Assembly: GCF_011306175.1 (NCBI RefSeq)
Contig: NZ_CP049913.1
Location: 1,054,001 to 1,118,000 of the forward strand
DNA: 64,000 nucleotides
Direction of reading: 5' to 3'
Source: Vibrio sp. HDW18
Lineage (GTDB): Bacteria; Pseudomonadota; Gammaproteobacteria; Enterobacterales; Vibrionaceae
Shown piece by piece: positions 24,550 through 26,998 of the stretch. Positions within the stretch are counted from its first letter, which is position 1. Every line of letters starts with the position of its first letter. The notes under the pieces are model-generated. The model searched no databases. It was not told where the DNA came from and saw nothing but the letters and a program-made list of their open reading frames with translations. The position numbers and the translations under genes are program-made.

Positions 24550-26451
24550 GTGGATATGATGTCTCTGATCACCCCGGAGCTGATCTGTCTAGATCTGCAA
24601 GCGACCAATAAAACTCAGGTACTGATGGAATTGGTAGATTTACTGGATAAAGCAGGAAAACTGACCAATAAACAGCAGTTTTTAGACGATATCTGGCGTA
24701 GAGAAGAGATTGGCAATACTGGCTTTGAGCAAGGGATCGCCATTCCACACGCCAAAAGCCACGCCGCAGCACAACCAGCAGTCGTGGTAGGAATTAGCCG
24801 CCATGGTATTGATTACGGTGCCGAAGATGGCCAACTTTCTGAGGTGTTTTTTATGCTCGCCTCACCGGAGGGCAAAGACCATCAACATATTGAAGTGCTG
24901 ACACAAATCTCCAGTAAACTGATTGAAGATGACTTTATCCAGCAACTTAAAGCGGCGACCAGCCTTGAACAAGCACGAGCCCTGTTTGTCGAGCCTTTAC
25001 CCACCCCTTTCTCCACCATGCCCGATCAGCCAAACTTTAACGAGCAACCCCTCAGTCAGTTCACCCAGCGCTTAGCGCAGATCAAGTTGCATCTGCTGTT
25101 TGGCACCTCGCATATGATCCCATTTATCGTCGCCGGTGGGGTACTTCTGTCACTGGCGGTGATGAGTTCAGGTCATGGTACCATCCCCGAACAAGGGTGG
25201 CTGGCCGATATCGCGCAAATGGGCCTAGCGGGTTTAACCCTCTTTACGGTGGTACTCGGTGGCTATATCGCTTATTCGATGGCCGACAAACCCGGCTTAG
25301 CTCCGGGTATGATTGGCACTTGGATTGCGGTCAATCAATACGATACCGGTTTTATTGGCGCAATGGTGGTCGGTTTTTTTGCCGGTTTTGTGGTGTGTCA
25401 GCTCAAGAAAATCCCCCTGCCAGAGAGCATGATTTCACTCGGCTCTATCTTTATCTATCCACTGTTTGGCACCTTTATTACCTGCGGTACCATCATGTGG
25501 CTGATCGGCTCTCCGATCGCGAGCAGTATGCTGTGGCTTAATCAGTTTTTGGCTTCCATGGCCGATTCAGGCAAGGTGGCGCTAGGCGTGGTACTCGGCG
25601 CCATGACCACCTTTGATATGGGAGGCCCGATCAATAAAGTGGCCACGTTGTTTGCACAAACCCAAGTCAATACTCAACCTTGGTTGATGGGCGGGGTGGG
25701 GATCGCGATCTGTACTCCACCATTGGGGATGGCTCTTGCCACCTTACTTGCACCAGGTAAATTCAAACGGGAGGAACGGGAAGCCGGTAAAGCGGCAGGT
25801 ATTATGGGCATGATTGGCATCAGCGAAGGAGCGATCCCATTTGCCGTCGCCGACCCGGCTCGGGTATTACCGGCAATTATTGCGGGTGGCATCGTCGGCA
25901 ATGTGATCGGTTTTTGGTTCCAAGTACTTAACCACGCCCCTTGGGGCGGCTGGATTATTTTGCCAGTAGTGGATGGCAAACTAGGCTACATCCTAGGTAC
26001 CTTAGCCGGCGCAGGTACCACCGCGCTGATCGCTATCGCGCTTAAAAAAACCATCGCCAACGAGCTGCAATATCACCCAGAGGATCATCCCGTGTATTCA
26101 TCGGTGAGCGAAGAAGGTCAAGCCGAGATCCTTGCCGTCACCGCTTGCCCATCAGGGGTGGCACATACTTTCTTAGCCGCCAAAGCGCTGGAAAAAGCCG
26201 CTTGCCGGATGGGGGTCAAAATCAAAGTCGAAACCCAAGGAGCCAACGGCATTCTCAATCGGATCACCGCCAAAGATGTTGAACAGGCCAAGTGGGTGAT
26301 CTTAGCCCACGATGTCGCGATTAAACATCCGCAGCGTTTTGAGCACATCAAGGTTATCGACATCACCACCAAAGAGGCGATTTTAAATGCCGCCGCCTTG
26401 GTGCAAATGAACCGTCAATATCAGCATTTGCCTTCAATACACCGAGGTTAA
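24550..26451 (+). CDS. PTS permease EIIA-EIIC-EIIB, fructose family (GTG start)
   Basis: A 633-residue permease with a domain order different from the copy at 20001. EIIA is about 1-150 with phospho-His67 in GIAIPHAKS; EIIC about 185-510 with FGTSHMIPFIVAGGVLL, GGPINKVATLFAQTQVNTQP and GISEGAIPFAVADPARVLP. C-terminal EIIB has phospho-Cys533 in LAVTACPSGVAHTFLAAKAL. Its EIIC and EIIB are closely similar to those encoded at 27156-28559. The GTG at 24550 has AAGGT ten bases upstream; ATGs at 24556 and 24559 are alternatives. It likely takes up a hexose, but sequence alone does not tell which one. Confidence 0.88.
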   Translation: MDMMSLITPELICLDLQATNKTQVLMELVDLLDKAGKLTNKQQFLDDIWRREEIGNTGFEQGIAIPHAKSHAAAQPAVVVGISRHGIDYGAEDGQLSEVFFMLASPEGKDHQHIEVLTQISSKLIEDDFIQQLKAATSLEQARALFVEPLPTPFSTMPDQPNFNEQPLSQFTQRLAQIKLHLLFGTSHMIPFIVAGGVLLSLAVMSSGHGTIPEQGWLADIAQMGLAGLTLFTVVLGGYIAYSMADKPGLAPGMIGTWIAVNQYDTGFIGAMVVGFFAGFVVCQLKKIPLPESMISLGSIFIYPLFGTFITCGTIMWLIGSPIASSMLWLNQFLASMADSGKVALGVVLGAMTTFDMGGPINKVATLFAQTQVNTQPWLMGGVGIAICTPPLGMALATLLAPGKFKREEREAGKAAGIMGMIGISEGAIPFAVADPARVLPAIIAGGIVGNVIGFWFQVLNHAPWGGWIILPVVDGKLGYILGTLAGAGTTALIAIALKKTIANELQYHPEDHPVYSSVSEEGQAEILAVTACPSGVAHTFLAAKALEKAACRMGVKIKVETQGANGILNRITAKDVEQAKWVILAHDVAIKHPQRFEHIKVIDITTKEAILNAAALVQMNRQYQHLPSIHRG

Positions 26452-26505: not shown

Positions 26506-26998
26506 TCAGTTTTCCAAGAGATAATCACGAAAATCAGGGTTCTCAATTTCCAACTTACCTCGCTCCGGAGTGTAGATCAGATCAAGCCTCTTTAATCGGA
26601 TCACCGCGTTTTTTACCGACCATTTGGTGATGTTCACGTCATGGTAACCAGTGAAAGCTTTCACTTTGTCTAACCCAATACTGGTATAAAGACCTTTTGA
26701 TTCGTTAACGGCAACAAGCTTTAGGATCGCCAATTCAATAGGTTTAAGCTGCTGACATATGATTGAAAAATGGCTTTCAGACTCAATTCGATCGGCATCA
26801 TATACCCAAACAACTTGGAGTTGCAGGTAGGCGGCAAGTGAGTGAATCCCCATGAGCATAGGCAAACTATGTGATTGGGGTGAACCAACGTAGCCAACAC
26901 CGCTGCAGCTTCAAGTAGGAAGGGTATAGCAGACCTTTGTCCATCCCATCAAGAATGAAGGTTGCCAGAGATGTTCGTGGGTAGTGCCAAATGTCCAT
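26506..26998 (-). pseudogene. ATPase (RRMGKTEFL-type AAA family) gene with its core replaced by an ERIC copy
   Basis: From the ATG at 26998 the minus strand reads MDIWHYPRTSLATFILDGMD then KGLLY, the N-terminus of a family of P-loop ATPases, and runs straight into an ERIC copy (26801-26927). On the far side coding resumes as DADRIESESHFSIICQQLKP and continues through a winged-helix C-terminus (SVKNAVIRLKRLDLIYTPER) to the stop at 26506. The P-loop and all of the middle, probably well over 200 codons, are absent. The frame entering the ERIC meets a stop inside it, so no fusion is made. The family assignment of the two ends is from memory of similar proteins and is less certain than the break itself. 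Confidence 0.65.
26801..26927. repeat. ERIC element, copy 4, inside the ATPase remnant
   Basis: A complete 127-bp copy with terminal TATACCC and GGGTATA. It is flanked on both sides by coding remnants of one gene, so its borders are exact. Flanking bases are ATCA before and GCAG after; no long target duplication is visible. Confidence 0.95.

Follow-up and report, generated by a model that had tools for sequence, protein, structure and literature searches.

A single ERIC in place of the core of an ATPase-like gene in Vibrio sp. HDW18, and the orientation of ERICs with replication in its genome

The stretch of DNA analysed here (the window) covers 64,000 nucleotides of Vibrio sp. HDW18, positions 1,054,001 to 1,118,000 of contig NZ_CP049913.1, and contains a minus-strand gene that is split by an ERIC. 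Read along the minus strand, 70 nt of the gene (26929-26998) are followed by a complete ERIC, after which the gene resumes for 297 nt (26506-26802). The features of the locus, in window coordinates, are as follows.

24550-26451, plus strand: flanking PTS transporter gene, with matches in 144 of the 146 Vibrio genomes searched (E<=0.001, paralogues included)
26506-26802, minus strand: C-terminal piece of the gene, 98 codons and a stop, 76-77% identical to four intact homologues; its first codon, TAT, lies at the C-side border and corresponds to codon 267 of the intact homologue L032
26506-26865, minus strand: open frame of 119 codons from the list of open reading frames, with a TTG start within the ERIC, running through the C-terminal piece
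26803-26926, minus strand: complete ERIC core of 124 bp, TACCC...GGGTA, flanked by TA at 26801-26802 and at 26927-26928
26929-26998, minus strand: N-terminal piece of the gene, 70 nt with the ATG at 26996-26998 (MDIWHYPRTSLATFILDGMDKGL), 88% identical to the intact homologue over residues 1-25, with 54 of its opening 72 nt as in L032
27036-27072, no strand assigned: inverted repeats ACCACAA / TTGTGGT upstream of the gene, a possible operator or terminator; similar words lie upstream of the intact gene in L032
27156-28559, minus strand: flanking PTS transporter gene from the list of open reading frames, convergent to the gene at 24550-26451

Both flanking genes are presumably PTS transporters. 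With one TA per side included, the ERIC measures 128 bp. It had been described beforehand as a perfect 127-bp copy; complete it is, while “perfect” was a loose word, the closest other copy in the genome (among 40 others listed, the best 40 of 123 candidates) being 99% identical. The reading frame of the N-terminal piece meets a stop codon within the ERIC. The frame at 26506-26865, which combines a start from the ERIC with an intact C-terminus, could yield a stand-alone C-terminal protein, and its start resembles the ERIC-encoded start of the V. cholerae VC2263 frame described in a passage of PMC2759123.

The original prediction held that the flanks of the ERIC are the two ends of one ATPase gene, and a derivation from two different genes was checked and did not occur. 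Intact homologues of 364 amino acids were found in other vibrios, and both pieces match one such protein, in order and in register, at residues 1-25 (88% identity) and 264-363 (76%), although the N-terminal piece, with 23 codons and one base, falls slightly under the 25 codons that had been given. The middle of the gene is indeed gone. A search of the window's genome with the 364-residue protein (E<=0.001) returned no match beyond the two pieces, i.e., neither a paralogue nor a relocated core, and a recombination between two paralogous genes is thereby unsupported at that threshold. The missing part includes the sequence APRKRGKT (residues 31-38 of the intact homologue), which we take to be P-loop-like. 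The assignment as an ATPase is less secure: the intact homologue does match Pfam ATPase_2 (PF01637), but with 25.7 bits against a curated cut-off of 33.2, and all four Pfam matches to the protein stayed under the cut-off. NCBIfam assigned it to no family, PADLOC gave one weak match (E 0.005), and a search of solved structures gave nothing meaningful, i.e., two matches at E 0.18 and 0.91. The C-terminal piece alone matched nothing in Pfam or NCBIfam, and the winged helix ascribed to it beforehand is putative.

When 148 Vibrio genomes, including the window's own, were searched with the C-terminal piece, matches were obtained in seven, namely the window's own genome, four at 76-77% identity whose open frames measure 384-385 codons, and two more distant at 33%. 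The 364-residue protein found matches in 20 of 227 Vibrio genomes, five of which (the window's own not among them) carry a copy 97-100% identical to the query. Among plasmid records, 136 matched the full protein (28 with an identity of >=99%) and 41 matched the C-terminal piece, 27 of these being typed as conjugative; plasmid examples of the intact gene are pAQU1 (L058) and an Aliivibrio fischeri plasmid. Four loci lie in genomes of Vibrio mytili, V. sinensis, V. albus and a Shewanella. The intact gene is thus widespread on Vibrio plasmids, whereas the window's gene is a lone chromosomal one flanked by PTS genes. A phage origin of the gene was rejected, with 0 matches among 50,697 phage records. 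In two other genomes (G061 and G088) the equivalent flanking genes are separated by only about 60 bp, without a gene in that interval, so that the ATPase-like gene would have been either gained at the window site or lost in those two genomes; in a third (G038) an unrelated gene follows the first flanking gene.

The borders were aligned with six intact homologues (L032-L035, L057 and L058; L059 was dropped, having no 364-residue frame). What is missing corresponds to nt 71-798 of the 1,095-nt homologue, i.e., 728 bp or the middle two-thirds of the gene, and both limits of the gap coincide with the borders of the ERIC. The two borders were then compared for the TA that an insertion would have duplicated. 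At the C-side border a TA is present in all six homologues, and at the N-side border in none, five having TT and one TG where the window has TA. This N-side TA could be the window's own ancestral CTA codon or a part of the ERIC. Because a TA dinucleotide starts at only 51-65 of the 1,095 positions in the six homologues, the C-side agreement would arise by chance about once in 20 times, and the six, being closely related, are no independent witnesses. Both remaining pieces are without stops and frameshifts. The C-terminal piece differs from L032 by a dS of 1.29 and a dN of 0.14, and the ratio is about equal to that between the intact copies L032 and L057 over the same part (dS 0.285, dN 0.034), for which reason, in this one genome, the loss looks recent or the C-terminal frame looks to be still in use.

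The other ERICs of the genome are bounded by TA in 61 of 70 cases at the 5′ side and in 66 of 70 at the 3′ side (seven of the 77 sites, with an unrecognised 5′ end, were dropped). Three pairs of ERICs lie 212, 244 and 259 bp apart, all in direct orientation and with unrelated DNA between them, which is what a two-copy intermediate of the deletion would look like; a fourth direct pair is 1,064 bp apart, and of the 15 neighbouring pairs closer than 8 kb, 13 have both copies on the same strand. A pair in another genome (G010), about 0.8 kb apart and in the same direction among the matches listed there, with a partial second copy, has a spacing near that needed for the event in the window. The window's gene may not be the sole ERIC-cut gene of its genome, as five other sites among the 70 ERICs with recognisable 5′ ends pass a loose test, in which the ERIC is flanked on either side by open frames of one strand; the shorter flank has <=63 codons in each.

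On contig 2 of the genome, near 453.8 kb, lies a transposase remnant (L184) that belongs to the IS630 family (NCBIfam NF033545, with a score of 156.6 bits where the cut-off is 100) and ends in an ERIC-like right end. Its relatives in other vibrios (L192-L195 among the loci), with open frames of about 350 codons, begin with TATACCCG and end, for example, with ACCTGTATCTTCAAGTTGAACGGGTATA. Their right ends agree with the ERIC at 22-24 of 28 nt in six copies, one of which is the remnant of the window's genome, and their left ends at 17-18 of 27 nt in four copies. With the terminal seven letters held fixed, none of 100,000 shuffles of the inner letters matched as well as the right end of L201, and 282 of 100,000 matched as well as the left end of L192. 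Left and right pair less cleanly than the ends match as such, in that the right end of the insertion sequence fits the left end of the ERIC (22/27) better than its own left end does. Alike in their ends, the two differ in that the insertion sequence is about 1.1 kb long with a transposase and the ERIC 124 bp long without one. The end match names a candidate: a Vibrio element of the IS630 family is a likely transposase source for the ERIC. This is an extension and no discovery, because a link between the ERIC-like MITEPlu5 and IS630 elements in Photorhabdus has been noted in a passage of PMC6267812. No intact copy of an ERIC-ended IS630 was seen in the window's genome, where the best match was the remnant, of 200 codons (among the best 14 of 30 candidates). 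A different, multi-copy IS630 of the genome, one copy of which lies in the window, was rejected as the parent of the ERIC, as its ends (TACCAATC) differ from those of the ERIC; elsewhere it forms runs at a spacing of about 1,114 bp, e.g., four transposase matches at 1858170-1861932 of contig 1.

33210-34325, strand not given: one copy of the multi-copy IS630, with ends TACCAATC...GATTGGTA

ERICs serve mostly as typing primers, and their movement and their effects on genomes are poorly known. Simple insertion removes no DNA, and the original prediction had left two options for the lost core, i.e., recombination between two ERICs or a deletion coupled to ERIC movement. We favour the first, with a probability of about 0.7 that two ERICs of the same direction within the gene recombined or slipped, leaving one copy. 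Starting from an intact gene, one ERIC would have entered close to codon 24, and another at a TA further on, in the TAT that corresponds to codon 267. If both took the majority direction of this replichore (see below) they would have formed direct repeats, between which recombination or replication slippage would remove one copy together with 728 bp; the product would be TA-ERIC-TA with codons from the two gene ends on either side. The N-side TA, the two-copy intermediate and the collapse itself are steps that we infer. The reading is favoured because all six homologues have a TA at the C-side border, because close direct ERIC pairs are present in this genome, and because passages of PMC2759123 and PMC6267812 describe ERIC as duplicating TA upon insertion. 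Against it stands the N-side border, with its TT or TG in the homologues, which would require a CTA to have stood there in this lineage. Nor, in collections with one genome per species, was a strain seen that has two copies in the gene or the intact gene at this site. The spacing of the copies also counts against the collapse. If 77 copies are placed at random over an assumed non-coding fraction of 12-15%, 3.6-4.5 pairs are expected closer than 300 bp and 8.5-10.5 closer than 723 bp, where three and three are seen, and under this assumption there is no excess of close pairs; if the copies are spread over the whole genome, 0.6 and 1.3 are expected. Collapse would, however, also remove pairs, and the shortage under the assumed non-coding placement would fit such a loss.

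That the gap coincides to the base with the ERIC on both sides, as from a single event, and that the N-side border has its TA in none of the six homologues, would also suit a deletion coupled to transposition, in which one aberrant insertion (e.g., by way of ends from two sister copies) added the ERIC and removed the 728 bp at once. We consider this unlikely, in view of the C-side border, which has its own TA in every homologue, of the published passages in which ERIC inserts with TA duplication, and of the ERIC ends, which match an element of the IS630 family, a cut-and-paste type that is not known for adjacent deletions. The junction could instead have been made by an ordinary deletion of the core, with one ERIC inserted later; a gene on its way to loss can, by inference, gather several changes, yet the ERIC would have had to strike the junction to the base, and the pieces, free of stops and frameshifts and with a C-terminal dN of 0.14 against a dS of 1.29, leave little time for two events of decay, which makes this sequence of events quite improbable. 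Short repeats are a classical source of assembly collapse, the ERIC has at least 77 copies here, and two of them in an intact gene might have been merged by the assembler, but the genome stands in three contigs with 99.99% completeness, three closer direct pairs were assembled apart, and the core has no match elsewhere in the assembly, so that an artefact is very improbable.

The preferred reading, collapse between two ERICs, is a repeat-mediated deletion, a kind of event already known, and the window provides a fresh example of it. In its length, its TATACCC...GGGTATA ends, its TA borders and its dispersed copies the window's element is like the ERIC (also IRU or RU-1, 127 bp, with the related MITEPlu5 of Photorhabdus) of published passages; unlike the usual ERIC, it stands in place of a gene core. 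Intragenic ERICs are in print (a passage of PMC2759123), and the passages of ERIC literature considered hold no gene with its middle exchanged for one ERIC. At Photorhabdus locus D, as described in part of PMC3091717, ERICs likewise lie at a rearranged and partly deleted locus, but that case also involves transposase genes and further sequences and is no clean two-border one in a single gene. A clean deletion of a gene core bounded by one ERIC is a route to gene loss.

The direction of the ERICs with respect to replication is, in this genome, a stronger result than the gutted gene and the more interesting part. The copies were counted as 75 by a pattern for the 3′ core and as 77 on scanning the loci, copies with worn 3′ ends being missed. 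Those of the window besides the one in the gene, by the 3′ core pattern, are:

8017, 22233 and 34713, minus strand: further ERICs
38318, plus strand: further ERIC, opposed to the direction rule

Of the 77 copies, 70 point with the replication fork (p=3.5e-14), i.e., 58 of 64 on contig 1, whose origin was placed by dnaA at 1.262 Mb, dif at 42 kb and sampled GC skew, and 12 of 13 on contig 2, where GC skew only was used to place the origin at about 210 kb and the terminus at about 540 kb. On contig 1, with 63 of its 64 copies, the merging of same-strand neighbours closer than 10 kb left 44 of 50 with the fork (p=3.2e-8); the origin position of best agreement (57/63) includes the dnaA site, and several others from 1.09 Mb on are equal. 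It follows from the 70 of 77 that neighbouring ERICs are mostly direct repeats, and such a rule would account for a deletion, and no inversion, where a gene has received two ERICs, direct-repeat deletion being then the expected fate of double insertions.

Transcription as the cause of the bias finds no support in gene context. At 76 of the 77 sites with a gene on both sides (genes being long open frames, crudely called), the flanking genes are without bias, 78 with and 75 against the fork, and the ERICs point with the fork in 21 of 21 cases where both neighbours run against it, 20 of 22 where both run with it, 18 of 21 between divergent and 10 of 12 between convergent neighbours. In Yersinia, ERIC direction is said in part of PMC2229807 to affect transcript stability. 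Slow selection was rejected, since there is no trend with age: at 0, 1, 2 and 3 mismatches in the 38-nt core, 21/23, 21/24, 12/13 and 14/15 copies follow the fork (n=75).

The core pattern was found in 13 of 297 genomes of the order, and as a further test of the bias these enterobacterial genomes were set aside, most of them having few copies in many contigs and no origin placed. Two other genomes agree with the direction rule, more weakly than the window's genome. In G157, 13, 14 or 15 of the 18 copies among the matches listed point with the fork when the terminus is placed between 1.37 and 1.70 Mb (p from 0.096 to 0.0075), and on contig 2 of G010 it is 10 of 12 (p=0.039, among the matches listed; seven copies on contig 1, with no origin, were left out). 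Pooled, these matches give 23 to 25 of 30 (p from 0.005 to 0.0003). Against generality count G331 (nine plus, three minus) and G294 (two and two), in which no halves were seen by eye, and the IS630-type transposases of the window's genome, with only 4 of 13 clusters along the fork (p=0.27; 21 of 30 matches used, merged to 13).

A tentative reading, which we hold to be possible though rather less than an even bet, is that ERIC transposition is coupled to the fork, that the copies of a replichore are accordingly placed as direct repeats, and that the family would act as a standing generator of deletions in dispensable genes, with the gutted gene as a finished product and the three close pairs in waiting. 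The direction rule in any case gives a prediction for any ERIC-rich genome. The titles and abstracts of the open-access literature searched hold no report of ERIC orientation relative to replication, and the rule may already have been published. For other transposable elements a dependence of direction on replication is established, as set out in part of PMC5371812: the orientation of Tn7 with TnsE and of IS200/IS605 follows it, as does that of the ERICs here, and the ERIC differs from both in being bounded by TA and in its IS630-like ends. Among the matches listed, two ERICs of G157, which belongs to another family of the order, share 98% (L039) and 96% (L051) identity with the copy in the window, a closeness that suggests recent exchange.
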